This document shows, in pieces, positions 14,417 to 64,000 of a stretch of DNA of 64,000 nt. The translations under genes and the position numbers were made by a program. The stretch comes from a virus. Position 1 is the first letter of the stretch, and each line of letters starts with the position of its first letter. The notes below the pieces were generated by a model, which was not told the origin of the DNA, made no database searches, and worked only from the letters and a program-made list of their open reading frames with translations. The stretch is from positions 18,807 to 82,806 of the IMG/VR virus record IMGVR_UViG_3300042321_002788; one strand, 5' to 3'.

Positions 14417-14614
14417 ATGAATCTGTACCTAATTAGAGATTCAGTTACATCATTTGGTCTTCTTATTGCAGCAGAATCAGAAACAGAGGCTATCTGGCAT
14501 TGGTGCATCTATTTTCATAGCAATAACGACAATCCAATCGAAATAGAAGAAATTAACATTAATACTTCTGGTATCGTTTGGAAATGTGGATGGACTACTG
14601 ATACTAACCCCTAA
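14417..14614 (+). CDS. Hypothetical small protein
   Basis: This 65-residue protein has a good GAGGA 5-9 bases before its ATG. It starts MNLYLIRDSVTSFGLLIAAE, a pattern seen in small phage proteins of unknown role that form a short alpha/beta fold. Its 3' end overlaps the convergent terminase gene by 11 bases. Confidence 0.6.
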   Translation: MNLYLIRDSVTSFGLLIAAESETEAIWHWCIYFHSNNDNPIEIEEININTSGIVWKCGWTTDTNP

Positions 14615-32133: not shown

Positions 32134-32579
32134 ATGACGCAATTAATGCGCGGTTAGAGGCAATTGCTAACCCCATTAATTGGGAAGAAATCTATTACAA
32201 ATGGTGTGCATGGGGATTATCTATGGAAGAGTGGGAAGAATGGCCAGACTGGTTAATCCTAAAAAAATATTCAGGGATTCAAAAAGTCAAATGTGAAGAG
32301 ATTAATTCACTATCAGACACAGTCAGTCAGATTGCCGCCATGGTTAACATTTACTTAATGGCTCAATCAAAAGAAAAATCACAGTCTCAACCTCCAAAAC
32401 CCAGTGATTTTCTTCCTTTCCGGTTTAAAGAAAATAAAAAATATTTTCTTGATCAAGAAACCGCTCAAATTCTGTTAGAAGCCATGAAAGCTGGACAAGT
32501 GCCAGTCTTCGCCACTCAAATAATAGTCGATTGCGGACTATACGACGAAATAATTCAATTAGTAGGGGAGAAAAGCTAA
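32127..32579 (+). CDS. Tail assembly chaperone, -1 frame extension (gpT-like)
   Basis: Read through the slippery site, translation continues for 150 residues (RIDDAINARLEAIANPINWE, then YYKWCAWGLSMEEWEEWPDW), giving a 410-residue fusion. The WCAWGLS...W segment is typical of the T domain that recruits the tail tube protein. An ATG at 32223 could give a 118-residue product alone, but the 90 open bases upstream of it favour the fusion. Confidence 0.75.
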   Translation, partial: RIDDAINARLEAIANPINWEEIYYKWCAWGLSMEEWEEWPDWLILKKYSGIQKVKCEEINSLSDTVSQIAAMVNIYLMAQSKEKSQSQPPKPSDFLPFRFKENKKYFLDQETAQILLEAMKAGQVPVFATQIIVDCGLYDEIIQLVGEKS

Positions 32580-35500
32580 TGTCTTTATCACTTGGTACTT
32601 TAGAAATCGGTCTAGGGCTAAATACAGCCCAATATGATAGCGGTATCAAATCGGCTAAAGACCAGCTTTCTTCTTTAGAAGATCATGCCCAAAAAATCAC
32701 TAGAGACATAGAATGGTCTCTTAAGCAAAGTATTCCTAAGTTAACAATTGTTCCAGTAGTAGATCATCGCCCATTGCATGGTTTAAATAAACATTTATCA
32801 GAAAAAGAAAAACACATTGATCGAGTTAGTAAAAAAGTTATCAGGATTAAAGTTGATGACAGTGAACTACAAGAAATAGCAAACAAAACAGTTATAGTTC
32901 AGGCATCAGTTCAATCTAAAGGTTCTAGCCAAAAATATTCTAATGAGATTAAACAAAAAGTAGAAGTATCTATCAAAAATGCAAATCTTGAATTATTAAC
33001 AGAAATTAAAGCGGTTACAAAAGAAATTAAAGAAGTTGTTAAATCTGTTTCTAGATTAAAGCCTACAGCTATTGGAACTATAAGCAATTCTTTAATACAA
33101 GGAATTGGATTTAATTTGACTAAAAGTTTTAGTCAAGGATTTGAACAAAGTTTTACTAAAAAAACTGGGTTTAACTTTGAATCCGCTGGGCAAAAAACTG
33201 GAAATATAACTGCTAGTTCTGTACAGTTTGTTCAACCAGTATTAAATAAACTTGTTGATACTTTACAAATAAAAATAGATAAAATAACAGGCAGAGATAA
33301 ACCGATTGGAGAACGAATATTAACTGCATCAGAAACTTTCCAAAAAATACAAACCAAGATAGGAGTTTCTAATAATAATCCTTATACTCAAAAATCTATA
33401 GATAATTCGATAGCAAGTTTTCAAAATATGCTCAGTGTTTTAGGAAGTGGCGAATTTTCAAAATTTCCAGAAGCATCTCAAAAAGCAATAACTTCACTAA
33501 CAGAGTTATTAAACCTTATATCTTCCGAAAATGACTTAGGTGAGCTTACTAAAGATTTAGCAGATTTATTAAAAATAACAATTGCTTTTAGTGGAAAAGA
33601 TTTTTTACAAATTATTAAACAATCTCACTCTCTTTTGAAAACTCAAAAAGCTTTAGAGGGAAGTAGCGCAGAATTTATCGGAGCTTTAAAGCAAGCAGTA
33701 TCAGAGCAAAAAATTATTGAACAAGGATTTAGATTAATTGCAAGAGAAAATCATAAATCATTTTTTGTTAACGATGAAGGTAAATATATTGGAACCGACA
33801 ATGTAGGTGGTCGAGTGATCGGATTTACAGCCACACCAAAACAATCAATGCCTGGTGTTGGGCAAGATATTTATGAAATTGCTTTTTCTCTAGATTCTCA
33901 GTTTTCTAGTCTAGGGGATGCAGCGCAATTAACAAAAAAAGAAGTAATTCAGCTAAAAAACTCTGTGTCTGAGTTTTTTAATAAGTTTGTAAGCAATACT
34001 AATGAAGCTATATTAACTGCATCGCCAGAAAATGCAGATCAAAAAGGAAAAAGACGGGGATCAATTTATCAACGATTTGGGTTTGTTCCTGAAGGAGAAG
34101 GTAATCGTTTAGTAGCGCAAATTTCTTCTAGAAAAATTGTTGAGCCAAACTTAAAATTTAATTTAAAACAGAATGAACAAGTTACTCAAATAAGTAAACA
34201 GATTGAACAAAGATTGACAACTACTTTAGGTACGTTCGATAATTTATTTCAGCATAGTATTTCACAAGCTATTCAATACGCTAAATCTATAATTGTTGGA
34301 AGCGAGTTAATTCAACAAGATTTAGAGCAACTTCAAAAAGAAGCCCAAAACGCTGAATATGATGATTCACCCGCAATACAATCTCAAAATAAAATAAATC
34401 AAAATTTAAAAAACTTACAGGCAAGGATAAAACAAAGCAAAAGACTACAAAACGATCCTATTTTACGGGATTTTTCTAAAATAGACATAACAAATATAGA
34501 TACTCTTGTACCAAAAGAACAATTAGCAAAAATTGCATTAAAAATTACTAAAATCACAGAAAATGTGCCTAAAGAAATTGTTAAAAAATTACTTGAGCGT
34601 GTTGCACAATTTCAGCCAGAAGAAATAATTGATCCTACACTCTTAGGATCAATTATTTCTTCATTAACAAAAGATATACAAACTCAATTAACAGGAGTAA
34701 CACCTCAATTAAAAATGTTCGGTAGTGGTGTTAATTCAAATTATCTAAATTTATTACCAGAAAAAAAACGAGAATCATTTCTTAAAAAACAAACAGAATA
34801 CGAGCAAGCATTAATTAAATACGAGCAGACCAACAATCCAGAAGCCAAAATACCGACCCCTCCACAGTTAAGCAAGATTGATAAACAGACAATTGCTAAA
34901 AACCTTAGAATTGAAGACGTTCAACGCGAAGTTTCCTATGTTATTCAAAATGCTAACACTTTAAGAAAAGCGTCTCAAGATGCTATTGATCGAGTTAATA
35001 ATTTATTAGCTAAAGTGCCAAAAAACGAAAGATTTGGGCATCCATTAGCGTCATTAAAAGGGAACCTTACTCAACTTAAAGAATCTGCCGAAAATGTTAA
35101 TCCTATTTATGATTTAAAAAAATTAGGTGTAAATAAAGAAATTCTTGACGCTATTGACGTTAAATCTCAAGTAATACCAGAAATGACTGATACTGGTTCT
35201 AGTATTGTCTCTGGATTAGTACAAGGATTAAATAGTAAATTAGCAGAACTTGAGACTGTTTCAATAGACATTGCCTCTATTCCACTAGAAATAACCAAAC
35301 AAATCAATAAAATACAGTCGCCTTCTAAAGAATTTGAAAAAGTAGGAAAAAATATAGTTGAAGGTGAAATTAAAGGAATTAAGTCAAAAGAAAAAGACTT
35401 ACAAGCGACGATGGCTATCATTGCTAAAAATATGATAGAAAATCGTTATTTGGCAACTAAAAATCCTGTAAACATCGATCCGTTTTTTCCTCATCAAATA

Positions 35501-38500
35501 GAAGCGTATCAAAAACAATCATCAAATACTTTTATTGGGGACATCCAATTAGGGCAAGAAAAAATACAAGGCGTTTCATATCAAAGTCAATCTATTTCTC
35601 AAGTCAATCAAAAAGCTATTAACCAAAGACTAGCGTTAGAAGCCGAAAATGAAGCAAATAGAAAAGCTACTAATAAAGCATTAACTGAAGCATCTAAATA
35701 TACTGCAAAAATACGAGAACTGTCTGAGAAAGATGCGGAACGTACTCGTAAACATAAAGCAGAAAAAGAAGCATGGGCAAAATTATGGACAAATCATGAA
35801 GCGCAGAAAAAAGCTAGTACACAACAGCTAGTTCCTGTTATAGCATCCACTGAAACACTAGGTAACAACAAAATAAAAACAGAAAAGACAGAAGAAGAAC
35901 TTCCTCTTTATACACCGTCTTCTATTGTAGAAAAAAAGGTTCAAGTATTAAAAGAATCTGGGCAATCTACTAATAAAATTGAAAAAATGTTAGCAGAATC
36001 TGCTAAAAAGTCTGAAGAGTTATTTTTAAAAGAAATGACAAAACGTTCAGCTAAAAAAGCGGAAGAAATTTATGCTAAAACTATTAAGGAATTTAAACAG
36101 AAAGCTTTACCGCCTGCTATTAATCTTGGTTCAATTCCTGATCCTTGGACAGAAGCATCTACAGGTGGTGCAGATGGGCAACCTCCTAAACCCCCTATCA
36201 ACCGACCTGTTGCTTCATCTGATCCCGAACCCGAACCAAATAAACAGGTAAAATCGGCAAGCAAGATAATTCAGAATATAGACAATCCTACTCAATTACA
36301 AAAAATAGGTAAGGCATTTGAAGCAATTAAAAATCAGTTAAATAACTTGCCTGAACCTATTAAACGAGTCTTGCTTGGAGCAAGAACACTGTTATCAGCT
36401 TTTGCTGGTTTTCAAATTCTTCAGCAAGCCGGTGTGTTTTTTCGACAATTTACCACTGATTCTTTTCAAGCAGCATTAAACATGGAGCGGCTTGAAACAG
36501 TCTTAAATTTCTCAACTGGAAATGCTGAATCTTCTCTTGCTAAATTAAAGATACAAGCTGACCGATTAGGAATATCATTTTTATCTTCTGCCAAAAATTA
36601 TCAGCAGTTTAGTGCTTCTGTAATAAATACGCCATTAGAATTTCAAAAAGATAAAATTTTTGAAGGAATAACATTAGGATTGGCTACTAGAGGTGCTAGT
36701 TCTCAACAGCAAGACAGAGCTTTACTAGCCATTACTCAGATAGCTAGTAAAGGTCGTGTTTCAATGGAAGAACTTAACTCTCAGTTAGGTGAAGCAATGC
36801 CAGGCGCGTTACAGATTGCTGCTCGTTCTATGGGATTGACTTCTCAAGAATTTATTAAATTAGTTGAATCAGGATCTATTTTAGCAGAAGATTTGCTACC
36901 TAAACTAGCTACACAGATTAACTTAGAAAGTGCTGGTGGACTTAGTGTTATTGATGATACTGCTTTTGCTCAAGTTGCCAGAGTTCAAAATCAGATAGAA
37001 TTGCTTCGCATTTCATTAGGCGAATCTTTATTAAACGCTTCTAAATTAGGATTACCATTAATAACAAAAGGACTAGAAATATTAACGAAAAATGGTCAGT
37101 CGTTAGCTACTGTATTGACATCTATTGGTGTTGTTAGTGCTGGCGGTTTTATTATGGTTTTAAAAAATATCGGACTTATAGACTTAGGATTAAAAGCACT
37201 GGGAGTTACAGCGGCATCTACTCGTGGGGCAATATCTCAGATTGGAGTAGGACTACTTAAAGGACTAGGATGGACTGCTTTAATTTATGGTGTAATGGAA
37301 GCTTTTAAAGAGCTTTATCAGTACATCAACGCAGGCTCCGAAGAGTCTAAACGATCTCTTAAATCAACTCAAGAATCGTTACAAGAATTGAGAAGATTAC
37401 TAGAGAAACCTTTGCCTACACCTAAAGCTTCTACTGTTATAACTGATAGTGCAACCGCAATTCAGCGATTTAAAAACAACAGAGAAAGAGATAAAAGCTT
37501 AGAATTTACTGCGGGGGGACTCATTGATACGACACAAATTTTAAGATTATCAACCGATACATTCAGTGATACAAAGATTATTGAATTTACGGGTAAACTT
37601 GACACATTGCGGCAAAAAGCAAAAGACCTCAAGATAGATGAAATCATAGCTAGTGGAGATGCTGACGTTAAAAAAGCTACATCTGTTCGTCAAGAAATTG
37701 CGAAAGTAAACCAAGAAATACAAGCTTTAACGGAAAAATACTTTCCTCAAATTGGGCTTATTGTTAATGAGATAGCATCTACAGAAGAAAGAATTACAGC
37801 AATTAAAAAAGTTTTAGATGATCCAGGGTCTTCTAATTCCCAAAAAGATAATGCTAGTATCCAGCTAGAAATTGCTGAAGTTCAACTTAGAAAATTAAAA
37901 GAATCGCAAGAAAAATATAACGAAGCAGTCAAAGAGAATTTAGTCAACTATCAACGATTAACAGAACAAATAAATAAAGTAGCAAGAGCTTTATCTAATA
38001 TTGAATTTGTCTCTAGTGGTCGAACTATTTTGTCTGAAACAGATATTAAACGACAAGTTTTATCTGGGAACCTGAAGCCGTTTGAAATAGACTTGACCGT
38101 TAGAGAACAGAGCCTATCTATTGTCAAGGATCAGTTTAATTCGCTTAATGGATTATTAGCAACCAAAGAAAAAGAATTACAAAACACCCTAACAGATCAA
38201 ATTAATCAGCGAATAACTGAGTTAATGCCTGAATTAAATGGAATAGATTTTAGAACGGCATTACAGCAGGGAAGTGTGTCACCAGAAGCTATAGGTGATC
38301 GGTTACAACAGTTGGGAGATCAAGCGCCTTTTGAATTAAACCAGGTATTAGAAACAGCTAAACAGCAAGCATCTATTAGACGACAAACTTTAACTATTGA
38401 TAAATCAATTGTTGATACAGAACTAGAAATTGCTAACGCTAGACGAGAGCGTGCAAGAAATGCCAGACAAGCATCAATAGTCGGTGCCAATGTCAACGAG

Positions 38501-41500
38501 AGAATTGCTACTTTAAGGCAATTACCCTTTGGGGGGCCAGCCGCTTCCTATCGGGATGCCTTATCAGAAGTTCGCAACCAAGAGAGATTGTTAGGAGAGG
38601 CTTATCGTCGATTAGAAAGTGCGTCAGACGACCCTAATGTGATTCAGCAAGAGGTTGATAATACCCGATTAGCCCTAGAACAAGCCCGCGCTAACCTATT
38701 ACAGCAACAAACATCACTACAAGACTATTACCGCAACCTTGACCGTCAGATAATCGACTTTAATCGTCAGATTAAAGATTACAGGAGACAGATTGAAGAC
38801 GCTCAACTGTCAGCTTTTAGAGAAAATCGTTCCCTATCTGAAAGTTACACTGATTTAGTCAGGGAACTCGATAAGAACCTCTTAAATGCCCAAAATCAGC
38901 TACTGGATGCGACCGATAGAATCAGGGTACAGCAAGTTAAAAATCGGTTATTGATACCCGGTACAAGCGACGCTGGCAAAGAATTAGGTGACATTTTCCT
39001 AGAATTTGTGCAGGGACAAGCTGATATTGCTAGTCGCGGACGCACCTTCCAATCCCGAACCGAGGAGATAGAAACTTCCTATATCTCTACTCTAAGAAAT
39101 ATCCGTAACTTACAAGAGCAACAGCAAGAGGCTGAAAGAAACCGACTAAAAACGATTGAGGATATTAAACGGACTCAGGAAGACCTCAATCGTACTCTAG
39201 CTGATTTAATCCGACAAACCAATAAAGAATTAGGCTTTATTCCCCAATCAATCAAGGATATTGTCACAAATCTTAATACACTTCCAGAACCAATTAAATT
39301 AATCAATTCTGAGTTAGTGGCTATTCCCCCAAATATTAAGACTTCTGGAGAAGACTTAATAAAAAGTATAGAAGAAACTGCGGAGGGAATTAGAAAAGCT
39401 AAGGAAGGTTTGATACTACCAGCACCTAATAATTTCACCCCTGCTCCTGTGTGGAATGGGGGAGGGTTTTTACCACCGCCACCGCCACAGTCGTCTTCAA
39501 TTCCCAAAGGGTTAACACCACGCGGTCAAGAATTATCTCAGCATTTAAACAATCCTCGCGTCAAAGCCTTTCTTGATGTTATTGCTTACGCAGAAGGTAC
39601 TGCCAAGATGCCAAATCAGGGATATAACACCCTTTTTGGCCATGGACAATTTAGTTCTTTTGCAGACCATCCACGCCAAAGAATTCCGTTTGGATCAACC
39701 AGTTCATCGGCATCTGGAAGATACCAGATCATGGATTTTACATGGAATGAAGAAAAAGCAAAATTAGGATTAAAAGATTTTTCTCCTGTCTCTCAAGATT
39801 TAGTCGCATTAAGCCGTATTCTAATGAGAGGTGGATTGGACGAGCTTCTTAAGGGAGATATTCGTGGGGCAATTAACGCAACCCGCAAAGAATGGGCATC
39901 TTTCCCAGGGGCTAATTACCCAGGGCAAGGTATGAAACGGATGGAAGACCTGTTAAAGGTTTACGATCAGTCTTTGCGAAAATACCAACCAAATGCCCCT
40001 CGTACTCAATCCGAACTAGACGCACTGCGATATGACGGCAATCCTGCTAACAGTGGAGCATCAAACCGTATTCGACAAATCAGAAGAAATCAAGGCGGTT
40101 CACCCACTCTATCAACTTCCACTCCTAACCCTTCTCCATCGGTTCAGCAACAAATCACCAACAGATTACCAAAAAATATTCAATCTGTTTTAGTTCAAGA
40201 AGTTGGCGGAAAAACTGTATATTCTAAAAACGCTCAAACACCCCCAGCGTCACCAGCTAGTACAATTAAAGTCATTATTGCTGATTTGATTGCCAAAGAA
40301 ATAACAAGCGGAAAACTTTCCTTAAAAGATGCTATCGCCATAAAATTGCCTTTGGTTGATCCACACGGACAATTAAAAGCCAATCAAGTTAAAACAGTTG
40401 AACAGCTAGTACAGTTAATGCTAGAAAAGTCAGATAATACGGCAACTAATGTTTTAATTGATCGGCTAGGTGGGCTAACCAAAGCTACAGAATTAGCCAG
40501 AAAAGAAGGTTATAAAAACACTACTATTTCTAGGTATTTAAATATACCAGGCAGTGGAACTCCAAACATTTCAACAGCACAAGACGTAACGTTAGCTATG
40601 CAGTCTTTAATTAAAAATCAAAATCCTGCAAGTCAATTAGCTGAACAATCTCTGAGACAAACAAGAAATTTTAAGTATAATAATGAAATCGGCGGAAAAA
40701 TTGGAAATAACTCTAAAGTTATTGGTAACGTTGGACTGGTAAACATTAATGGGAAAGAATATATTGTAACTGCTTATGCAAACATTAACGGCAATCAACT
40801 AAATAATCGAAAAATAATAACTAATGCTACTAATGCAATTAGCCAATCCATTAAAGACTCCACCTCTAACCCTTCTCCTGCCCGTGTTTTAACAAAAGAA
40901 GAAACAAAAGAAGGAAAAGGCGGTCCAGAATTTAGTAGTCCTCCACCTATAGCCCAATTACCGGCTCTACCTAATCAAAACCGAGATAATTTCTGGGATG
41001 CCGATTTACCACCGGTTCTCAAAGAAAATCCGATTAACTTCCAGAGTCCTAATTTACCTCCCGTTCCCAATCTTCCTACGGGTAATCTTGGCGCATCGGC
41101 TGATCAAATTCGCAACGCTGAAACAGCCAACCAAAACGCTGAGGAGTTTTCAAGACGGCTAGAAGAGCAACAAAATCTAAACAATGCTCTTGACAGATCA
41201 ATGAAATTTAGACGGCAGCAAGAGGAAGATGCCCGTGCATTAGAACGCACTTTAAGAGATGCTTCCGAGAATGTCGCTGATTTGACTATCAACTCTAAAG
41301 GGTATCTGACAGTACAAGAAGAAATTAATAAGAGTGCTACAGAAGTCTCTCGACAATATCGCTCTCAGATTGAATCACTAGAAGACCAGCGACGGACTTT
41401 ACTTTTAAATGCTGAGGCTCAACAAAAATACAGCGACGCGATAAAAGAAATCTTAGGAGAATTTCAAAGAAAAGGTATAGCTCTCCCCCCTGAATTTCTC

Positions 41501-42760
41501 AAGAAAATGACAGATAGTATTGATGCTTTAGCTAAAAACGCTGAATTAGCTAAAGAACAGGTAACAATTCTTGATCAAGCAATTGAACAATTAGGCAGAA
41601 ATCAGGGAGTAGCTACCTTAGAAGCATCATTTAGAAAAACCAGAGATACAGTCAGGAGTATTCGTGATCGGTTAAATGATTTAACTATCCAAAGAATGCA
41701 ACTAGAATTTCAGTCTGGTTTTGGATTATTTGATAATTCTGCTATCCTTGCCGAACGTATTAGCCTACAAAAAGAAAAAGAGGAACTAGAGGATTATTTA
41801 GAACCGTACAAAGACTTGCCACAGTACGCTGAATATGTGGCTAATATTCGCTCGGAATGGGAAAAACTTACAGAATTAAGATTAGAACGAGCGGAGTTAG
41901 ACGCTTCCCCAAATCGTGGCGCAGCTGAAAGCTTTTTCTCTGACATTAGAGAAGGAAAAGGAATAGGATCAGCTTTTAGTAGTCTTGGATTAAATATTAT
42001 GACAAAATTTGTTGAGGGTATTACCAAGCCTGCTATTGATGCTCTAACTTCTGCTATCGATGGATTTACAAAGCCAATTACTCAAGCTTTTGAATCGCTA
42101 TTTAATGCAATCATCGGGCCAGTAGGCAATTTCTTCACTAACGCTCTAAACAGTATCTTTAAACCAGCAGGTAACATCTTTTCTTCTATTTTTGGTGGCG
42201 GTGGCGGAGGTGGCTTATTTAATGGACTACTTAGCGGAATAACAGGGATTTTTAGTGGAGGACTTGGGGGACTTGGTTCGATTGGATCACTTGGTAGTGT
42301 AGGAGCCTCTAGCTTTGCTTCTGCTCCGGCTTCTGCCTTTTCTCTAGGTACAGGATTCAGCCTATTTAGTGATGGTGGGAAAGTTGGAGATGCTAATGTT
42401 CCGATAGAGAAAAATATCATTTCAGCTTTTCAGCGCGAACGAGCAATGTCGGGAGGCCGAAAACCTCGATTAATCGTAGCCAATGAAGATGAATTAATTC
42501 TCAACCCTAAAGAAACAGAAGCCTATCTAGACTACAGAAATAATGCTCCTATTAAGAACTATGCTAATGGAGGATTTGTCGGGGGTAAGCCTAATTACTC
42601 CACAACCTCAAATAACAATAGCTCTAATCAGTCTTTGGTAATTAATAACACCAATAACGTGACTGTAGAATCACGGAATGATATGGGTTATAGTTTGAAT
42701 CAATTGAAAGAACGGGAAAATACACAAAATGAACGAACTAAAAAACGATTCTTTGGGTAA
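32579..42760 (+). CDS. Tail tape measure protein with lytic transglycosylase and beta-lactamase-fold domains
   Basis: The ATG at 32579 overlaps the chaperone stop, with GGGGAG upstream, giving 3393 residues that set tail length. Residues ~1-1200 are helical. ~1296-1446 match the tape-measure N-terminal domain (VSMEELNSQLGEAMPGALQI). Long coiled coils follow. ~2320-2470 is a lambda-R-like GH104 transglycosylase (AFLDVIAYAEGT, E2339). ~2528-2760 is a class A beta-lactamase/D,D-peptidase fold with STIK (S2561, K2564) and SDN (2618-2620), but KIG in place of KTG. A Gly-rich membrane-prone segment lies near the C terminus. The enzymes probably open peptidoglycan during DNA entry. Confidence 0.93.
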   Translation: MSLSLGTLEIGLGLNTAQYDSGIKSAKDQLSSLEDHAQKITRDIEWSLKQSIPKLTIVPVVDHRPLHGLNKHLSEKEKHIDRVSKKVIRIKVDDSELQEIANKTVIVQASVQSKGSSQKYSNEIKQKVEVSIKNANLELLTEIKAVTKEIKEVVKSVSRLKPTAIGTISNSLIQGIGFNLTKSFSQGFEQSFTKKTGFNFESAGQKTGNITASSVQFVQPVLNKLVDTLQIKIDKITGRDKPIGERILTASETFQKIQTKIGVSNNNPYTQKSIDNSIASFQNMLSVLGSGEFSKFPEASQKAITSLTELLNLISSENDLGELTKDLADLLKITIAFSGKDFLQIIKQSHSLLKTQKALEGSSAEFIGALKQAVSEQKIIEQGFRLIARENHKSFFVNDEGKYIGTDNVGGRVIGFTATPKQSMPGVGQDIYEIAFSLDSQFSSLGDAAQLTKKEVIQLKNSVSEFFNKFVSNTNEAILTASPENADQKGKRRGSIYQRFGFVPEGEGNRLVAQISSRKIVEPNLKFNLKQNEQVTQISKQIEQRLTTTLGTFDNLFQHSISQAIQYAKSIIVGSELIQQDLEQLQKEAQNAEYDDSPAIQSQNKINQNLKNLQARIKQSKRLQNDPILRDFSKIDITNIDTLVPKEQLAKIALKITKITENVPKEIVKKLLERVAQFQPEEIIDPTLLGSIISSLTKDIQTQLTGVTPQLKMFGSGVNSNYLNLLPEKKRESFLKKQTEYEQALIKYEQTNNPEAKIPTPPQLSKIDKQTIAKNLRIEDVQREVSYVIQNANTLRKASQDAIDRVNNLLAKVPKNERFGHPLASLKGNLTQLKESAENVNPIYDLKKLGVNKEILDAIDVKSQVIPEMTDTGSSIVSGLVQGLNSKLAELETVSIDIASIPLEITKQINKIQSPSKEFEKVGKNIVEGEIKGIKSKEKDLQATMAIIAKNMIENRYLATKNPVNIDPFFPHQIEAYQKQSSNTFIGDIQLGQEKIQGVSYQSQSISQVNQKAINQRLALEAENEANRKATNKALTEASKYTAKIRELSEKDAERTRKHKAEKEAWAKLWTNHEAQKKASTQQLVPVIASTETLGNNKIKTEKTEEELPLYTPSSIVEKKVQVLKESGQSTNKIEKMLAESAKKSEELFLKEMTKRSAKKAEEIYAKTIKEFKQKALPPAINLGSIPDPWTEASTGGADGQPPKPPINRPVASSDPEPEPNKQVKSASKIIQNIDNPTQLQKIGKAFEAIKNQLNNLPEPIKRVLLGARTLLSAFAGFQILQQAGVFFRQFTTDSFQAALNMERLETVLNFSTGNAESSLAKLKIQADRLGISFLSSAKNYQQFSASVINTPLEFQKDKIFEGITLGLATRGASSQQQDRALLAITQIASKGRVSMEELNSQLGEAMPGALQIAARSMGLTSQEFIKLVESGSILAEDLLPKLATQINLESAGGLSVIDDTAFAQVARVQNQIELLRISLGESLLNASKLGLPLITKGLEILTKNGQSLATVLTSIGVVSAGGFIMVLKNIGLIDLGLKALGVTAASTRGAISQIGVGLLKGLGWTALIYGVMEAFKELYQYINAGSEESKRSLKSTQESLQELRRLLEKPLPTPKASTVITDSATAIQRFKNNRERDKSLEFTAGGLIDTTQILRLSTDTFSDTKIIEFTGKLDTLRQKAKDLKIDEIIASGDADVKKATSVRQEIAKVNQEIQALTEKYFPQIGLIVNEIASTEERITAIKKVLDDPGSSNSQKDNASIQLEIAEVQLRKLKESQEKYNEAVKENLVNYQRLTEQINKVARALSNIEFVSSGRTILSETDIKRQVLSGNLKPFEIDLTVREQSLSIVKDQFNSLNGLLATKEKELQNTLTDQINQRITELMPELNGIDFRTALQQGSVSPEAIGDRLQQLGDQAPFELNQVLETAKQQASIRRQTLTIDKSIVDTELEIANARRERARNARQASIVGANVNERIATLRQLPFGGPAASYRDALSEVRNQERLLGEAYRRLESASDDPNVIQQEVDNTRLALEQARANLLQQQTSLQDYYRNLDRQIIDFNRQIKDYRRQIEDAQLSAFRENRSLSESYTDLVRELDKNLLNAQNQLLDATDRIRVQQVKNRLLIPGTSDAGKELGDIFLEFVQGQADIASRGRTFQSRTEEIETSYISTLRNIRNLQEQQQEAERNRLKTIEDIKRTQEDLNRTLADLIRQTNKELGFIPQSIKDIVTNLNTLPEPIKLINSELVAIPPNIKTSGEDLIKSIEETAEGIRKAKEGLILPAPNNFTPAPVWNGGGFLPPPPPQSSSIPKGLTPRGQELSQHLNNPRVKAFLDVIAYAEGTAKMPNQGYNTLFGHGQFSSFADHPRQRIPFGSTSSSASGRYQIMDFTWNEEKAKLGLKDFSPVSQDLVALSRILMRGGLDELLKGDIRGAINATRKEWASFPGANYPGQGMKRMEDLLKVYDQSLRKYQPNAPRTQSELDALRYDGNPANSGASNRIRQIRRNQGGSPTLSTSTPNPSPSVQQQITNRLPKNIQSVLVQEVGGKTVYSKNAQTPPASPASTIKVIIADLIAKEITSGKLSLKDAIAIKLPLVDPHGQLKANQVKTVEQLVQLMLEKSDNTATNVLIDRLGGLTKATELARKEGYKNTTISRYLNIPGSGTPNISTAQDVTLAMQSLIKNQNPASQLAEQSLRQTRNFKYNNEIGGKIGNNSKVIGNVGLVNINGKEYIVTAYANINGNQLNNRKIITNATNAISQSIKDSTSNPSPARVLTKEETKEGKGGPEFSSPPPIAQLPALPNQNRDNFWDADLPPVLKENPINFQSPNLPPVPNLPTGNLGASADQIRNAETANQNAEEFSRRLEEQQNLNNALDRSMKFRRQQEEDARALERTLRDASENVADLTINSKGYLTVQEEINKSATEVSRQYRSQIESLEDQRRTLLLNAEAQQKYSDAIKEILGEFQRKGIALPPEFLKKMTDSIDALAKNAELAKEQVTILDQAIEQLGRNQGVATLEASFRKTRDTVRSIRDRLNDLTIQRMQLEFQSGFGLFDNSAILAERISLQKEKEELEDYLEPYKDLPQYAEYVANIRSEWEKLTELRLERAELDASPNRGAAESFFSDIREGKGIGSAFSSLGLNIMTKFVEGITKPAIDALTSAIDGFTKPITQAFESLFNAIIGPVGNFFTNALNSIFKPAGNIFSSIFGGGGGGGLFNGLLSGITGIFSGGLGGLGSIGSLGSVGASSFASAPASAFSLGTGFSLFSDGGKVGDANVPIEKNIISAFQRERAMSGGRKPRLIVANEDELILNPKETEAYLDYRNNAPIKNYANGGFVGGKPNYSTTSNNNSSNQSLVINNTNNVTVESRNDMGYSLNQLKERENTQNERTKKRFFG

Positions 42761-46503: not shown

Positions 46504-46538
46504 GGCTTTTTAAAAGATAGTATTTTCTCTATTTTAAG

Positions 46539-46620
46539 TGGATTGGGCTAGATTTGCACTAGCGTGGAATTACTCTACAGATTTACAGTCTGTCGCCTTC
46601 GACTACTCGGCCACCAATCC
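46539..46620 (-). tRNA. tRNA-Tyr (GTA)
   Basis: On the minus strand: acceptor GGATTGG/CCAATCC, anticodon stem CAGAC-type with loop CTGTAAA giving anticodon GTA, a long variable arm as in bacterial tRNA-Tyr, and T-arm GCTAG/CTAGC with loop TGCAAAT instead of the usual TTC start. Discriminator A; no CCA is encoded. Confidence 0.88.
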
Positions 46621-46647
46621 TTGTTTAAATTTATCTTACTATAATTC

Positions 46648-47190
46648 TTAATGCTTGTCAATCATATTGGTTTTTGATTCTTGATTCTTTTGAGATTCTT
46701 GCAAATTAAGAAGTTGAAGCATTGCTTCTCCTGCGTCTTTACGCGCCATGTTACAAGTCCAGAGTCTTTGTTCATTGCGCTTGATAATGATAATTTCTGT
46801 ATTAGAAACTAAACAAACTAAATCATTTTTCTGTTTTATTAGTTGATTAATAGCTTCTAATTTTTGCTTTTGTTCTAATTCAGAAACGGGTTGAGGGTTT
46901 TCTCCATACTCTTGCGTGGAGAAAACAACAGCTAACATAACACTTTTTGTTTCTTTAAACTGAAAATGAATAATCTGCCAACTAAATTCACCATCAGGCT
47001 CTAATTCTCGATTCCAAATATTTAGAAAGGTTTCTAAATAACCTTCTAATCCTTTTTGAGTTTGACGATTTTTATTAATATCACTGAAAAGTCCTTGATG
47101 CTGTTGAGGATAGTTTTCAACAGGTTTTACTGACTCACTATCTTGAATAGAGTAAGAATGACAAGAATTAAACGGAAACATAAAGGGCAT
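46648..47190 (-). CDS. Hypothetical protein
   Basis: A TTG start at 47205 is possible. The ATG at 47190 (MPFMFPFNSCHSYSIQD) is preferred, giving 180 residues. The protein is mixed alpha/beta with WQIIHFQFKETKSVMLAVVF in the middle and a Gln/Ser-rich tail. It is the last protein gene before tRNA-Tyr in the minus unit that begins with the CRISPR nuclease. No family is recognised. Confidence 0.6.
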   Translation of the reverse strand: MPFMFPFNSCHSYSIQDSESVKPVENYPQQHQGLFSDINKNRQTQKGLEGYLETFLNIWNRELEPDGEFSWQIIHFQFKETKSVMLAVVFSTQEYGENPQPVSELEQKQKLEAINQLIKQKNDLVCLVSNTEIIIIKRNEQRLWTCNMARKDAGEAMLQLLNLQESQKNQESKTNMIDKH

Positions 47191-49898: not shown

Positions 49899-51782
49899 TC
49901 AGGCTAGTAAATCCCAGATTGTAAGCTGGTCGGGGTTTTCGGGGATTGCGCCCCGTGATTTTTTAGAATTTCGCTTAGATGCCTTATTGGGTAAGGCTTC
50001 CAGGTTATTTATGCCGTGGCTATCCTCGCACGGCTGAGGTGGGGCGGAAGAAAAAATAAGGGATTGCGAGTCATTCTCGGACTGAGTGGGAGTGCGATTC
50101 CCTTCCTGCTTTATCTGCTTACTAATCGAGTGTTCGGCATTCTCTATTGGCGCGTCCCCAATAGACTCTTGATTTGCATCAAGATCAGGCGTGAATTTCC
50201 CTGCTAAACCAGGGTATTTTCCAATCATAGAGACAGGAAACTTGATTAAAGAGCTAATCGCTCTTAAAAACTCATCTCGTAAGCCACGGATCAGAATATT
50301 TGCGGCGGCATTCTGATCGGCGTGGGCTTCATAGCCACAGCTAACACATCTAAACTTTGATTGACTAACGCGGTTAGCTTTATCAATATTACCACAATTG
50401 AAGCAAGTTTGTGAAGTATGTTTAGGATTAACTCGGATCACTTTTCTGCCACGTTCGTTAGCTTTATTTTCGATAAATGTACGAAGTTGTCCAATAGCAT
50501 TATCAAGTAATGCCTTATTTAATCCGGACTTTCTTTTTTTGCCATTTTGTTTATAGCCATCACCGTCTTCTCTTTCTTTAGGTTTTGCGGCGGCTGTCAT
50601 GTTTTTTAGTTTTAAATCTTCTAAAATAACTGATTGATATTCGCTGGTTATTTTATGGGCTAATTGAGCATTTCTCCCTTTTCGCTGACGAGCAATTTTC
50701 TCATGAACACGGGCAAGTTTAGCGTAGGTTTTACGCTGATTATTAGAGTTATCTTTTTGCCTAGAAGCTTGACGCTGTAGTCGGTTAAGTCGCTTTTTCT
50801 GAATTTTTGCGTAGCGTTTAGCTTCTGATTGTCTCCCTAAGTCATCGGTAAATATTGCCACAGCACCCATATCTAAACCAACACATTTATCAGATTCTTT
50901 ATAGATCATGTCGTCGGTTTCAACGGTTAACTGTAGATAATATCCCGTCGCTTTACGAGTAATTTTAGCCATTCGGGGAGCTTTCCCTTGTAGTCGGTCA
51001 ATCCCCCGTACTTTCAGTAATCCTATCTTTGAAGAAACAATAACCCCATTAGATTCAATCTTTATAGTTTCAGGTTGACCGTTAACAAGAGTCTCTACCT
51101 TATCCCGTCTTCTTTTAAACTTAGGAATCCCACGGATACCTTTTTTAGCGGCATCATAAGCAGGTTTAATCACACTTCTAAAAAAGCCTTTTTTAAACTC
51201 TGTTTCAATTTCACCGATAAATTTTGCTGTATCTTCTCGAAAGTAAAAAGCAAGTTTCTCCCTATTGAGATAATTAATAGCATCCTTGTCAATATTTTCG
51301 GCATTCTTGAAACGACGGATAGGAATAGCATATAAGGGAGTATATTCTTTTCTGTTGCTTGTCTTTTTAAAATAGGCAATTTTACAGCAAGGATTGCCAA
51401 TTAAAAGTTCTTTTTCTTTATCTTTAAGGGCTTTAAACTCTTTTTCGTCATAATCCCCAGAATAACTTAACTCCCATATTTCAGGGCTAAACTCATCAAA
51501 TTTATGTTTTTTGCGATAATATCTTTGCTTTGATTCTTCCTTAAGTGCGATCGAAAGATTCCAGAGTAACTTACACGCCGCTAAAGAACGATCAATCTCT
51601 GTGATTTGTTCTTTAGTAGGATGTATCTTAAATTCCAAGACTTCCATAGAAGATTTTTCTTCTTTTTTCTTAGGAGTCTTTTTTACGATACTAAACCCTA
51701 GATGCCCATCTTTAGAACTAGGCGTTTTTTGAATTTGATACTCATCTACTTTACGCTTAACTTTACTTTCTTTGGCTTTCAT
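49899..51782 (-). CDS. Compact TnpB/Cas12-like RuvC nuclease (type V-U-like CRISPR effector)
   Basis: The ATG at 51782 has AGAAGG 8 bases upstream and suits the promoter TSS; an ATG at 51800 would add 6 residues. In the resulting 627 residues the RuvC centre is complete: D304 (GLDMGA), E388 (VILEDL) and D489 (HADQNAAANI). A Cys4 zinc ribbon (C460/C463/C479/C482) lies between II and III. The N-terminal ~290 residues carry the TnpB-type opening (FKIHPTKEQ, CKLLWNLS). It is longer than TnpB (~400) and ends in a ~125-residue hydrophilic tail with DQLTIWDLLA. Next to the array it should act as an RNA-guided DNA binder or nuclease. Confidence 0.87.
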   Translation of the reverse strand: MKAKESKVKRKVDEYQIQKTPSSKDGHLGFSIVKKTPKKKEEKSSMEVLEFKIHPTKEQITEIDRSLAACKLLWNLSIALKEESKQRYYRKKHKFDEFSPEIWELSYSGDYDEKEFKALKDKEKELLIGNPCCKIAYFKKTSNRKEYTPLYAIPIRRFKNAENIDKDAINYLNREKLAFYFREDTAKFIGEIETEFKKGFFRSVIKPAYDAAKKGIRGIPKFKRRRDKVETLVNGQPETIKIESNGVIVSSKIGLLKVRGIDRLQGKAPRMAKITRKATGYYLQLTVETDDMIYKESDKCVGLDMGAVAIFTDDLGRQSEAKRYAKIQKKRLNRLQRQASRQKDNSNNQRKTYAKLARVHEKIARQRKGRNAQLAHKITSEYQSVILEDLKLKNMTAAAKPKEREDGDGYKQNGKKRKSGLNKALLDNAIGQLRTFIENKANERGRKVIRVNPKHTSQTCFNCGNIDKANRVSQSKFRCVSCGYEAHADQNAAANILIRGLRDEFLRAISSLIKFPVSMIGKYPGLAGKFTPDLDANQESIGDAPIENAEHSISKQIKQEGNRTPTQSENDSQSLIFSSAPPQPCEDSHGINNLEALPNKASKRNSKKSRGAIPENPDQLTIWDLLA

Positions 51783-51810
51783 AGATCGACCTTCTTTCAT
51801 TTTTATTTAA

Positions 51811-59365: not shown

Positions 59366-62263
59366 ATGATACCACAAAGCTCTAACCGTGTCAAGATCGA
59401 TAAAAACAATCCTTGTCCCCACTGTGGCAAGCCTGATTGGTGCTATATGTACACTGCTGAGGACGGCAATTTACTCTCGGTCTGCAACCGAGATCACGAA
59501 CCCGCAGCAGGATGGGAAAAATCTTCTAAATTAGACAGTCAGGGCAAGCCAATCTACTATTTTAAGAAAGAAGTCAAGTTTTCTGGCTATAAAAAAGAAA
59601 AAACCCAATATTTTCTTTATCCTCCCCTTGTCAGTGGGGCGAGAATCCGCGTGTACCGGAAGGACTATCAAGAAGATGGAATCTGGAAAAAGGATATTAA
59701 GCAGCAACATTCTACAGATAATGGTAAAAATTGGAAATGGGGAGTAGGCGATATCGGTTACAAAGATATACCTCTTTACCGTCAAGATCGGCTGGAAAAG
59801 GCTATTAAGGAAGGGACCCAGATATTTGTAGTAGAAGGCGAGACTAAGGTAGAAAGGCTTGAGTCGTTTGGGCTGGTTGCCACTTGCAATATAGGCGGAT
59901 CAAAAAAATGGCAGCCAGATCACACGAAAGCTTTGAAGGGAGCAAATCTGATTTTATGCCCTGATCGCGACAAAGGGGGAATGGCTCACTGCCAGAAAAT
60001 TTATCAAGATTTCCCCGATGCAAAATGGCTTTATGCCTATCCAGATTCTCCTTTGTGGAATCATTTACCAGATTCTCAAGGGGTAGATATTCTTAATTGG
60101 ATTGAAGAAAAGAAGGTAACTCTCGATACATTGCTAACTTCGATAGTTGATAAACCAAAAGAAATAAAAGAGAGCAAAGAAAAAGAAGTCACAGTAACAG
60201 AAACGATGACTTTTCAAGACCTAATAACAGCTATTGACGGCTGTATTGGTCAGGAAGAAATCACCCGAACTCAGTGGCAAGAAAAAGTCGATCTGTGGGC
60301 AAAAGCCACTGGTAGGAAACCATCAGACATACGACATTTAATTGAAATCCGTAAAACAGAAATAGCAGAAGGGGACGCTATCAAATCAGGATTAGAAGGG
60401 TTCTTGAAAGGTAAGCATTATCAGCAGAAAGAGATTGATCTTTTTGAGATACTTCCGAAACCTTTAGCCGAAGCGATTATAAGCCGTGCCAAGACATTAA
60501 ATCAACCCCCAATCAGATTACTGCATTCTTTATGGCCAATACTAGGAGCTATTTTAGGAAGTCGGTTTGCAATTAACCTCCGAACTACTGTAAGAGAAAG
60601 GGAATGCTGGAAGGAATACCCGATATTCTATTGTGCAGATTTGGGCGGGGTTTCCACTGGTAAAACTCTCACTCAAAACGAAGTTTGTCGGGTTTTGAAA
60701 AGAAAAGATTTAGCCGAGCAGAAAAGAGTTACTAAGGAACAATCCACACTAGACGATCTAAAAGCTGCGTGGCAAGAGATGTCAGCGTCAGATCGCAAGG
60801 CAAACAAAACAAACGCTGAAATCAACCCTCGTCTTTATGAGAAAGAACACTGTCAGGCGCGTCGGTGGTTTTATGATGAAGGTACTCTTGATGGCATCTT
60901 AAAAACGATGTCCTCGCAACCTTCTTGGCAAGGTGGGGTAGTCGTATATGACGAATTATCGGGATTTTTTGAAGGATTAAATCAGTACCGATCAGGTGGT
61001 AAAGGTAACGACCGGCAACGAGACTTAAGCAACTGGAATGGCCCTATCCGAAATACTTTTGACCGCGTAAACAAAGACAATCGATACTATTTAGATGGGC
61101 AAACACTTAATAAATTAGGTGGGATACAAGTCGAGAAACTCAGGAAATATCTTGATTTATCTAATGATGTCGATGGGGCAGTTTCTCGGTATCTTTTCTT
61201 GCTACACGAACCCCTTGATCCTCGTCCTGGTAAGCCGCCAGAAGACCCTAATTCTATCGATGAGTGTATCGAAACACTGGTCAATCAAATCAGTGGAATT
61301 AGCCTAGAAGCTGATGAAAATGGGATTATCGATCCTTATAATTGCTGGTTTAGCGAAATCGGAGAAAGTTATGCCTGGGGTATTAAGTATCACTACGAGA
61401 TACTTATTAAGAAGTATCGAGCGATTAATCCATCATTTGCTTCCTATCTAGGGAAGCAAATGAAGACTTTTTTAAGGCTTACATTAAGTATCCATCTTCT
61501 CAATTGGATATTTGATCCAGATAATACTAATCTTTACAGTATTCCTGTGCAAACAGCCATTAAAGCTGCTAAGATGACCGACTTCTATATCAGTCAATTC
61601 CTGACAATTCAAGGAGTTACGTCTCAGGACGAAAATCCAGTACAGGGAATTTTATCCGAAATCTGGGAGATCGTTAAAAGCGCAGGTCAAATTAAACCTC
61701 GGGACGTTGCCCAAAAATTCGGCGGGCGTAAAATTAATGGGGAAAAAGTAAATACATCTATCGCCCGTACCCTACTTACTCAGCTAGAGCAAGCTGGCTA
61801 TGGACGACTAGAGGTCAAATCAAGGGGTATGGTGTTGCACTATCAAGAGCCAAAAGAATTAGAAACTTTTGAGATAGAAGATTCTCTGGAATATAAATCG
61901 GAGATAAAAGAAGAAATTGTTCAAGTTGCCAGTCCCACTTTCACACACCCAAAAAATGAATCGATCCCTGATTCTGGCATAGTAGAAGTTGAATCGGAGC
62001 CAGTAATCGATGAGTTATCGGCTGATGGTGTACACATTGATAGTCTTCCTGATCTTGAGAAAGAAAAGGTGCTAGTGCGGACGGCTGCACCTATAGAGAT
62101 AGGGGAGCGAATTATCCCACCGAGAGCAGTCGGAAAAGTTATAGAAGCAACTTTTGACACTTTTGACAATCAATGGCTTTTGAGGGTAGAAACTGTTTTA
62201 AATGGGTCTGTGATCATTTTTACAATTCCATTTTCTGATTGTTACCTAGATATAAGTACCTGA
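59366..62263 (+). CDS. Primase-helicase (Zn finger, TOPRIM-like and DUF3987-like ATPase)
   Basis: This 965-residue protein is the main replication protein seen. Residues 17-40 hold a Cys4 finger (CPHC...C...C40). ~150-205 resemble a TOPRIM core (VVEGETKVERL with E157, and LCPDRDKG with D200/D202). ~355-680 form a DUF3987-like P-loop ATPase with GVSTGKT (K433) and Walker B VVYDELSGF (D529). ~750-820 look like a winged helix. The acidic C-terminal ~140 residues end in a beta domain. Such fusions prime and unwind DNA in cyanobacterial phages and plasmids. Confidence 0.8.
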   Translation: MIPQSSNRVKIDKNNPCPHCGKPDWCYMYTAEDGNLLSVCNRDHEPAAGWEKSSKLDSQGKPIYYFKKEVKFSGYKKEKTQYFLYPPLVSGARIRVYRKDYQEDGIWKKDIKQQHSTDNGKNWKWGVGDIGYKDIPLYRQDRLEKAIKEGTQIFVVEGETKVERLESFGLVATCNIGGSKKWQPDHTKALKGANLILCPDRDKGGMAHCQKIYQDFPDAKWLYAYPDSPLWNHLPDSQGVDILNWIEEKKVTLDTLLTSIVDKPKEIKESKEKEVTVTETMTFQDLITAIDGCIGQEEITRTQWQEKVDLWAKATGRKPSDIRHLIEIRKTEIAEGDAIKSGLEGFLKGKHYQQKEIDLFEILPKPLAEAIISRAKTLNQPPIRLLHSLWPILGAILGSRFAINLRTTVRERECWKEYPIFYCADLGGVSTGKTLTQNEVCRVLKRKDLAEQKRVTKEQSTLDDLKAAWQEMSASDRKANKTNAEINPRLYEKEHCQARRWFYDEGTLDGILKTMSSQPSWQGGVVVYDELSGFFEGLNQYRSGGKGNDRQRDLSNWNGPIRNTFDRVNKDNRYYLDGQTLNKLGGIQVEKLRKYLDLSNDVDGAVSRYLFLLHEPLDPRPGKPPEDPNSIDECIETLVNQISGISLEADENGIIDPYNCWFSEIGESYAWGIKYHYEILIKKYRAINPSFASYLGKQMKTFLRLTLSIHLLNWIFDPDNTNLYSIPVQTAIKAAKMTDFYISQFLTIQGVTSQDENPVQGILSEIWEIVKSAGQIKPRDVAQKFGGRKINGEKVNTSIARTLLTQLEQAGYGRLEVKSRGMVLHYQEPKELETFEIEDSLEYKSEIKEEIVQVASPTFTHPKNESIPDSGIVEVESEPVIDELSADGVHIDSLPDLEKEKVLVRTAAPIEIGERIIPPRAVGKVIEATFDTFDNQWLLRVETVLNGSVIIFTIPFSDCYLDIST

Positions 62264-62303
62264 TAGAATTGACAATTTTAGGAGTCCCTGATAGGATTGA
62301 AGT

Positions 62304-62503
62304 GCTAGAGTAGCTTGGTAGCTAAAGGCTGAAACGAAGCCTTCAACCGAAAAGGGACTTAATGCAAAAAATAAAGTTATTTTTTGTTTCAAAACTGAAA
62401 TTTGCGAATCCACCGAACTTAGCAAAGATTGAGTGAGGGAAGGGCGTTTCGTCAGGAGTAGATTTAATTAAGTTTTGCGGGTTCAATTCCCGTCTCTAGT
62501 ACC
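62304..62503 (+). ncRNA. tRNA-like structured RNA of about 200 bases
   Basis: GCTAGAG (62304-62310) pairs with CTCTAGT (62494-62500) as a 7-bp acceptor. GCGGG/CCCGT with loop TTCAATT is a perfect T-arm, and discriminator A is followed by CC. Between them TAGC-TTGGTA-GCTA resembles a shrunken D-arm. About 150 extra bases fold into hairpins (AAGGCT/AGCCTT; CAAAAAATA/TATTTTTTG) and GACTTAAT/ATTAAGTT closes under the T-arm. The conserved tmRNA start and group I intron core are not evident. Options are a tRNA with an intron, a divergent tmRNA, or a new tRNA-like RNA. Confidence 0.5.
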
Positions 62504-62504
62504 T

Positions 62505-62708
62505 ATGATCGGACAATATATTCCCTCCCGATACCCTGAAAAAGTTTATCGTGTTAATTCCTATGGTCAAATTTTCCCCCGGTGCAAACCACTGGGGATT
62601 ATTAAGACTGCCATAGGAATCTACTATCACTTTGAATCAATTGATCGCCTCACAAAAGGAGAACATTTTTACTGTTTTCGCAAAGAAGATTTTACAGAAA
62701 TTTCTTGA
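62505..62708 (+). CDS. Hypothetical small protein
   Basis: A frame opens inside the tRNA-like RNA, but the ATG at 62505 just after it gives 67 residues (MIGQYIPSRYPEKVYRVNSY). The product is basic and beta-rich. It has no visible ribosome binding site and may be translated from the cleaved 3' side of the RNA. Confidence 0.5.
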   Translation: MIGQYIPSRYPEKVYRVNSYGQIFPRCKPLGIIKTAIGIYYHFESIDRLTKGEHFYCFRKEDFTEIS

Positions 62709-62733
62709 CAATTCTAGTAAAATGATGTAGGAT
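62705..62733 (+). promoter_or_regulatory. Sigma70-type promoter of the TTGACAATTCTAG family
   Basis: TTGACA at 62705 and TAGGAT at 62728 are 17 bases apart, with ATTCTAG after the -35 as at 52930. It overlaps the stop of the previous gene and leads the gene at 62760. Confidence 0.8.
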
Positions 62734-63462: not shown

Positions 63463-63864
63463 ATGAACACATGGCAAATAGCGGAAAAGTTATTTAATTT
63501 CTGTAAAGAAAAATACCCAGATTTAGACTGGAATTTTGATTTTACAGATAATCGCTACGAAATCATTCAATGCTTAACTTTTTCTAATGGCAGCATAGAG
63601 ATTAGATACGGTTTTTGTACGGGATTAGACAGACAACTTAAGTGTGTTCAGTGGCAAGATAACCAAATAGGAAGGTTTAAAATTTGGATAAATCCTCCTA
63701 CTGAGTTCTGTCATGATCGGTATGAAGACACTATAGTTTTTGAGAATCTTGCCTATTATAGACATGAGCTATGGAGTGCAGAAAATTGGAAATTAGTTAG
63801 TCAATACCAAAAAATAATGCTAGATATTTTCACTTTCATTTTTGATGAAGTTAAAAATATCTAG
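63463..63864 (+). CDS. Hypothetical protein, tandem family copy 1
   Basis: This 133-residue protein has AGGAG before its ATG. Its opening (IAEKLFNFCKEKYPDLDWNF) matches the next, window-cut gene (VTGKILEFCHRSYPNLRWNY), so the two are tandem duplicates. The same helix-then-W-strand layout recurs in the pair at 28327/28642, suggesting one expanded family. Confidence 0.65.
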   Translation: MNTWQIAEKLFNFCKEKYPDLDWNFDFTDNRYEIIQCLTFSNGSIEIRYGFCTGLDRQLKCVQWQDNQIGRFKIWINPPTEFCHDRYEDTIVFENLAYYRHELWSAENWKLVSQYQKIMLDIFTFIFDEVKNI

Positions 63865-63867
63865 CAT

Positions 63868-63892
63868 TACTAGACAAAATATCTGTCTAGTA
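63868..63892 (+). terminator. Hairpin between duplicated genes
   Basis: TACTAGACA pairs with TGTCTAGTA around 7 bases, just after the stop of the gene at 63463. No T-run follows, so it may be an attenuator or processing site. Confidence 0.45.
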
Positions 63893-63915
63893 ACTTTACC
63901 CAACAGGAGTAACAA

Positions 63916-64000
63916 ATGGACATAAAACAAGTAACAGGGAAAATATTAGAATTCTGTCACAGAAGTTATCCAAATTTAAGATGGAATTACTCTTATAGTG
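63916..64000 (+). CDS. Hypothetical protein, tandem family copy 2 (cut by window end)
   Basis: The first 28 codons of a paralogue of the gene at 63463, with the same AGGAG-to-ATG spacing. The rest lies outside the window. Confidence 0.6.
   Translation, partial: MDIKQVTGKILEFCHRSYPNLRWNYSYS

Follow-up and report, generated by a model that had tools for sequence, protein, structure and literature searches.

Phages encode structured noncoding RNAs such as the ornate GOLLD and ROOL RNAs, which are much larger than 200 nt. The tRNA cluster of phage T4 reportedly also gives rise to two stable RNAs, species 1 and 2, which are tRNA-sized or larger, have no assigned function and bear a likeness to the RNA described here. 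To our knowledge, tRNA-like RNAs that are unable to decode are rare. Phage tRNAs, including tRNA-Tyr, defeat tRNA-cleaving defences (PMC11555353, PMC13096335, PMC10264068). A mimic RNA that captures a defence protein also has a precedent in the RNA anti-CRISPRs (Racrs; PMC10651486), phage noncoding RNAs in which a host RNA is mimicked and a host protein captured.

We analysed a stretch of 64,000 nt (the window) that is part of an 82.8-kb IMG/VR virus contig and contains a candidate tRNA-like RNA of about 200 nt. Like GOLLD and ROOL it would be a structured noncoding RNA of phages, but it has no Rfam match. In common with the tRNA-Tyr genes of T5 and T6 that act against tRNA-cleaving defences (PMC11555353, PMC13096335), it is a tRNA-type gene in an accessory region, beside tRNA-Tyr in phage Ma-LMM01; it differs from them in carrying a domain of about 120 nt and in being unable to decode, its loop being paired internally. 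Racrs (PMC10651486) are the closest working precedent for the mechanism proposed below, although they mimic CRISPR repeats whereas a tRNA would be mimicked here, and the RNA had no significant CRISPR-repeat match.

Predicted fold and its conservation

The copies fall into three subfamilies: W (the type of the window and Ma-LMM01), the L205 type from another phage lineage, and the far diverged L194 type. In tRNA terms the domains follow one another as acceptor, D-arm, anticodon-position hairpin, about 120 nt replacing the variable region, T-arm and acceptor, an arrangement that we know from no other family. The features of the fold are as follows.

62304-62503, + strand: tRNA-like noncoding RNA, with the 5' acceptor strand at 62304-62310, the 3' strand at 62494-62500 and the discriminator A (A73) at 62501
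62312-62323, + strand: D-arm analogue AGCT-TGGT-AGCT, its loop carrying a GG that every subfamily keeps
62325-62343, + strand: anticodon-position hairpin of 5 bp with the 9-nt loop TGAAACGAA (family consensus TRAAACGRA); five of five pairs covary between subfamilies
62330-62336, + strand: 5' strand of the pseudoknot, loop TGAAACG, partner at 62445-62451; two-sided change from G-C to A-U in L043 and separately in L194
62346-62355, + strand: invariant core motif ACCGAAAAGG, identical in all three subfamilies
62357-62363, + strand: 5' strand of helix P2, pairing with 62467-62473 directly below the T-arm; two-sided changes in five of seven pairs across the family
62365-62386, + strand: A/U-rich hairpin inside P2, sequence variable with pairing kept; paired deletion in Ma-LMM01 copies
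62401-62414, + strand: invariant core motif TTTGCGAATCCACC, its GAATC pairing with an upstream G(N)TTC
62417-62434, + strand: inner hairpin ACTTAG...TTGAGT, two of six pairs covarying with the L205 type
62437-62451, + strand: invariant core GGGAAGGGCGTTT, holding the pseudoknot 3' strand CGTTTCG (62445-62451)
62467-62473, + strand: 3' strand of P2, with two-sided covariation with the 5' strand
62477-62493, + strand: T-arm of 5 bp with a canonical 7-nt T-loop

The initial annotation had proposed a perfect acceptor and T-arm enclosing a structured insert, with one helix directly under the T-arm, and all these elements were recovered. The acceptor strands GCTAGAG and CTCTAGT pair at seven of seven positions (one G.U) and are followed by the discriminator A and CC, the latter varying between copies. 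The T-stem GCGGG/CCCGT (62477-62481/62489-62493) is perfect and closes the T-loop TTCAATT, and ACTTAAT/ATTAAGT form the helix below it. The RNA as a whole is predicted to be structured (minimum free energy -55.5 kcal/mol, z = -3.21, none of 200 shuffles as stable). The RNA was near-invariant in 28 distinct copies and its fold was kept by compensatory change in the three diverged subfamilies, which puts the original observation beyond chance. The pairing of the 9-nt anticodon-position loop with CGTTTC in the insert, and an independent promoter ending exactly at base 1 of the RNA, go beyond what had been described.

In the three-subfamily alignment A3, 97.9% of cells were paired and 24 of 54 pairs had changed on both sides, which none of 500 shuffles reached; A3 was fitted to the nested structure of the covariance model R1, so that its nested counts lean towards that structure. 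When partners were slid by one to three columns as a control, pairing fell to 38-50%. Compensatory changes were found in five of seven acceptor pairs, in the anticodon-position hairpin and P2 as listed, and also in the D-arm, inner hairpins, T-stem and pseudoknot. Independent covariation support for the fold was obtained within the W subfamily alone. The long-range pseudoknot RAAACG/CGTTTY is absent from R1, and its first pair is the one that covaries. As the anticodon-position loop is occupied by the pseudoknotted domain, the RNA is predicted to be unable to read codons. Helices 7 and 8 of a first model derived from the minimum free energy (AAATTTGC/GTAGATTT; TCC/GGA) were rejected as incompatible with L194, helix 7 being also partly broken in L004 and L022. 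By eye, W and L205 also suggest another pseudoknot (TTTGC with a GCAAA/GTAAA hairpin loop), which was dropped because it was offset by one base between the two and clashed with the inner hairpin.

The invariant unpaired and core segments comprise TGGT, the loop TRAAACG, the three listed core motifs and the T-loop except for one purine. In four contigs (L011, L027, L029 and L044) the 3' acceptor strand TCTCTAGTACC is swapped for TCTGGGGACT, which breaks the acceptor and leaves the remaining RNA intact. The broken acceptor of this clade is either recent decay or a natural test of the need for an acceptor; as the four contigs keep the RNA, an intact acceptor is unnecessary for its persistence there. 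This persistence would agree with a trans-acting regulatory or protein-sponging small RNA, in which the tRNA-like ends serve 3'-end formation and stability, the pseudoknotted core is functional and the target need not handle tRNA. The concentration of the most invariant bases in the core, the free turnover of the acceptor sequence and the lack of a terminator-like site downstream point the same way. However, even strongly diverged copies retain the T-loop, the GG of the D-loop, A73 and a paired acceptor, an indication that the elbow is important in its own right, and we regard such a small RNA as a possible but somewhat unlikely explanation.

Comparison with known RNA families

At the Rfam gathering threshold, cmscan reported no family for the window, and with permissive E-values it gave no meaningful match for any of the three subfamilies. 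ARAGORN did not call the RNA in any of them. A match to CRISPR-DR44 (E 0.19), located in the promoter region on the other strand, was dropped as chance. The best sub-threshold tRNA-type match was to tRNA (RF00005), with 15.8 bits against a threshold of 29, and covered the 3' part only. All three subfamilies share with tRNA (RF00005) the 7-bp acceptor, the 5-bp T-stem, the canonical 7-nt T-loop and the GG of the D-loop. They differ from it in their score below the gathering threshold, in length (about 200 nt against about 70-95 nt) and in the anticodon-position loop, which has 9 nt (TRAAACGRA) and not 7, lacks U33 and has no free anticodon, as it pairs with CGTTTY in the insert.

These differences also bear on a true tRNA gene split beside the variable region by a group I-like or other intron, about 120 nt long. 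Removal of the insert indeed leaves roughly tRNA-sized halves, but cmscan found no group I intron match in any subfamily and an uninterrupted version was not met, the best cyanobacterial matches being ordinary tRNAs. Moreover, the anticodon-position loop has at least 9 nt without U33, is variable (TG insertion in L014 and L038) and is paired to the insert. A split tRNA gene is thus extremely unlikely.

The outline of a tRNA-like half over a long helix and pseudoknots is also that of tmRNA (RF00023 and relatives, including cyanobacterial and permuted forms), in which the acceptor and T-arm close these elements within one molecule of a few hundred nucleotides, and a tmRNA-like RNA acting on ribosomes, by rescue or inhibition, would share it. 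The known tmRNA fold is, however, unlike the paired D-arm and anticodon-position hairpin of this RNA of about 200 nt. Covariance searches for tmRNA gave no match in W and none in L194; in L205 the best match, 15 nt long and confined to the T-loop region, reached 9.4 bits against a cut-off of 47. A tmRNA-type tag reading frame with a resume codon was not conserved among the copies, the start being lost and indels being present. The only short open reading frame inside the RNA (ATGCAAAAAATAAAG...) was rejected as a candidate because several copies have lost its ATG, and 1-nt deletions occur in the loop region. Action as a tmRNA-like RNA therefore appears rather improbable.

Because the tests for tmRNA, tRNA and group I intron failed, the RNA was filed as a new family, of the loose kind 'tRNA-like noncoding RNA'. 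The initial annotation had judged it to be neither a tmRNA nor recognizable as a group I core, and had raised a novel tRNA-like phage RNA as a possibility; with no tmRNA, group I intron or other family found at a meaningful score by covariance search in the three subfamilies, that view was borne out. Among the papers searched, no earlier report of this RNA was found. The locus very probably encodes a structured tRNA-like RNA that is noncoding and has its own promoter, and with the same confidence we maintain that it defines a family.

Promoter, cassette and distribution

The promoter and the RNA together form a removable unit, with the following features in and around it.

59366-62263, + strand: upstream DUF3987 primase-helicase-like gene (Pfam PF13148, E 5e-22), its stop codon at the left edge of the cassette
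62255-62261, + strand: left AGTACCT repeat, bounding the cassette with the right copy; empty sites have a single (A)RTACCT
62262-62504, + strand: removable cassette of promoter and RNA, 243 bp, inserted where the DUF3987 stop codon overlaps the start codon of small ORF C2 (TAATG)
62269-62274, + strand: -35 box TTGACA, in every aligned copy except L038 (TTGACG) and in both gene contexts
62292-62297, + strand: -10 box TAGGAT, TANNAT in all copies and perfect TATAAT in some, after a 17-nt spacer; position +7 after the box is acceptor base 1
62505-62708, + strand: small ORF C2, family unassigned, downstream in the window context only; a remnant only follows the RNA in several Ma-LMM01-type copies
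46530-47173, - strand: tRNA-Tyr and flanking ORF, 89% to the Ma-LMM01 locus examined, where the module adjoins the RNA

Despite differing flanks, the W copies carry a sigma70-type promoter, TTGACA-17-TANNAT, with a predicted +1 on G1. The L205 type has TTGACA-18-TATAAT with +1 likewise on G1, and in L194 a candidate promoter sits a few bases further upstream. The early, middle and late genes of Ma-LMM01 carry SigA-like promoters (PMC5780444). The RNA-seq libraries of that study lacked strand specificity. No terminator-like site was found downstream of the RNA in the window or in Ma-LMM01, which would be consistent with a 3' end matured by tRNA enzymes. Another promoter, TTGACA-17-TAGGAT, shares both hexamers with that of the RNA and lies at 62705-62733 in front of the following small ORF. 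At 63463-64000 and in relatives, a small protein family (MNTWQIAEKLFNFCKEKYPDL...; cluster C0) is present as tandem paralogues, two to four in a row, their number varying by phage.

About 15 close relatives (e.g. L050, L055 and L083) have the empty site GATATAARTACCTAATGATYGG, where the DUF3987 stop overlaps the start of the next ORF. Filled and empty sites differ by the 243 bp bounded by AGTACCT, and both reading frames are preserved. On the DUF3987 gene tree the presence and absence of the cassette need nine changes, at least six of them forced, and their scatter equals that of shuffled labels; as recombination among phages could yield such scatter, it speaks for patchiness and not for autonomous movement. 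Its tape-measure and tail proteins mark the window lineage as siphovirus-like. The Fukuivirus copies (144,879-145,076 in Ma-LMM01) are placed between gp162 and tRNA-Tyr, oriented opposite to their neighbours, and the site is empty in the relatives L088 and L096. Some Fukuivirus copies keep a C2 remnant, from which we infer a transfer from the window type to Fukuivirus. The two are otherwise almost without common DNA, with the exception of the tRNA-Tyr module, which is 16 kb from the RNA in the window. This module of tRNA-Tyr and an ORF (phrog_36071), at 46530-47173 in the window and at L002:6307-6944, is 89% shared by otherwise dissimilar phages.

The gene contexts bear on two further explanations. 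ORF C2 of the window starts one base after ACC, as might be expected of a cis-acting leader controlling the downstream gene, but in other contexts the RNA is followed by different genes, antiparallel genes or a gene remnant, and the L205 and L194 types have unrelated sequence on that side. A leader is therefore very unlikely. The precise boundaries with the AGTACCT repeat, the frequent gain and loss, and truncated copies with about 1.25 kb between them would suit a DNA-level element (a recombination or integration site, or a small non-autonomous mobile element) whose tRNA likeness is incidental. However, selection keeps the RNA pairing, including G-U intermediates and the pseudoknot, and the promoter is set to +1. 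The W subfamily has only two insertion contexts, and the C2 remnant in some second-context copies points to ordinary recombination, so that a DNA-level element is quite improbable. In L008 (4788-4838; also in L012, L019 and L036) a truncated copy that retains the 5' part (promoter, acceptor 5' strand, D-arm and hairpin) lies 1251 nt upstream of the full RNA. Small genes lie between the two copies, and the arrangement is a recombination scar at the RNA.

Presence and absence at the same site in close relatives and an own conserved promoter were both found by sequence. As judged from these genomes, the cassette is a unit that travels as an accessory element (moron) among cyanobacterial phages, with near-identical copies in unrelated Microcystis-type phages, so that several unrelated viruses of bloom-forming cyanobacteria have it. 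The predicted product is thus a noncoding-RNA 'moron', a term that refers here to the accessory, self-promoted arrangement only, tRNA-type 3' processing being assumed in place of an own terminator, and is not a tmRNA, an intron or a decayed tRNA.

Unannotated copies with 94-95% identity were present in all nine Fukuivirus records found, including Ma-LMM01, the missing annotation having been checked in the annotation tables of four of the nine. Copies at 94-100% identity were found in about 40 IMG/VR contigs; many contigs are fragments, possibly from few lakes, and phage hosts are inferred except for isolates. Run over 391 Cyanobacteriales genomes, model R1, for which 28 distinct copies were used, returned a single strong distant match (53.9 bits, E 1e-10), and a more permissive run added a second in the same family; the next-best matches checked in cyanobacterial genomes were true tRNAs. 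Both distant copies, of the L194 type, are in long cyanobacterial contigs whose phage-like genes include those for a tail-fibre-like protein, a primase and methyltransferases. Terminase (PF03237) was not found in the two cyanobacterial genomes carrying them, so that these contigs are of putative phage origin. A pattern search with the shared core led to six contigs from another phage lineage that carry the L205 type, whose identity to the Ma-LMM01 copy is 74.8%; about a dozen chance matches came up besides. The combined model R2 scored the distant copies at 108.6 bits and the L205-type copies at 187-188 bits, and matched only the two L194-type copies over the same 391 genomes. In 367 genomes drawn from across the cyanobacterial phylum a pattern search gave one chance-looking match only; an exact pattern scan of the genome collection gave none, and a final viral pattern scan about 20 unrelated chance matches. 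Phage records outside Fukuivirus had no sequence match at useful scores. Within the limits of the genomes sampled, the family looks like a cyanophage RNA. The three subfamilies represent few independent lineages, as no difference separates the copies of the L205 type, and the two contigs of the L194 type are about 99% alike.

Divergence was compared with that of neighbouring genes. In context A the RNA had a mean pairwise divergence of 0.023, compared with 0.098 in the 3'-terminal 1200 nt of the DUF3987 gene and 0.195 at the 4-fold sites of that gene. Within one lineage the RNA thus diverges about nine times less than the 4-fold sites of the adjacent gene. Context B gave 0.019 for the RNA against 0.040 and, at 4-fold sites, 0.082. 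These comparisons indicate that the RNA is kept almost unchanged by selection. Taken from the alignments, the predicted RNA is a covariation-supported family that is widespread in Microcystis-type phages, and a removable cassette, not a fixed gene.

Other features were observed in the window and in a related contig. A TnpB-type protein with OrfB_IS605 and Cas12f1-like TNB domains is encoded at 49902-51800 (- strand). The terminase large subunit (14607-17480, - strand) is interrupted by a LAGLIDADG homing-endonuclease domain, probably an intein. A 3409-aa ORF (32531-42760, + strand) has tape-measure matches and an endolysin/lysozyme-like domain at about residues 2326-2510. An IscB-like protein with RRXRR and HNH domains (L195:4876-6357, - strand) lies about 2.5 kb from a distant RNA copy.

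Proposed function

As a whole, the explanation that we tentatively favour is a tRNA mimic that is matured by host enzymes and acts in counter-defence or host takeover. For the mechanism of counter-defence or takeover by itself our confidence is somewhat lower, and equally cautious is the proposal of a new class of phage RNA, in which the giant variable domain locks the anticodon-position loop in a pseudoknot and the RNA captures a host tRNA-handling enzyme, which may be a defence nuclease, a maturation enzyme or a synthetase. Transcription by the host sigma70 polymerase would begin on acceptor base 1 or beside it. Cleavage by RNase Z after A73 would take the place of a terminator, and the host CCA enzyme would complete the 3' end to give a stable, abundant tRNA mimic. 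This mimic may then bind or saturate a host tRNA-handling protein, most plausibly a tRNA-targeting defence nuclease, or else a factor of tRNA maturation or translation.

We favour counter-defence or takeover because of the patchy accessory distribution, the exchange between unrelated phages, the constraint on the whole fold and the predicted inability to decode. The RNA adjoining tRNA-Tyr in Ma-LMM01, together with the published cases of phage tRNAs in defence, was a further reason, the support from accessory status and tRNA-Tyr proximity being circumstantial.

If the proposal holds, the RNA would be a tRNA-world counterpart of the RNA anti-CRISPRs that unrelated cyanophages exchange in the form of a removable cassette. 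Every Fukuivirus record searched, including the cultured Microcystis phage Ma-LMM01, contains this unannotated structured RNA, which is constrained more tightly than neighbouring genes. With Ma-LMM01 and its host in culture, the prediction is directly testable. Should the RNA bind tRNA-handling proteins, phages would be seen to contest host translation and tRNA-targeting immunity by tRNA mimicry as well as by spare tRNAs.
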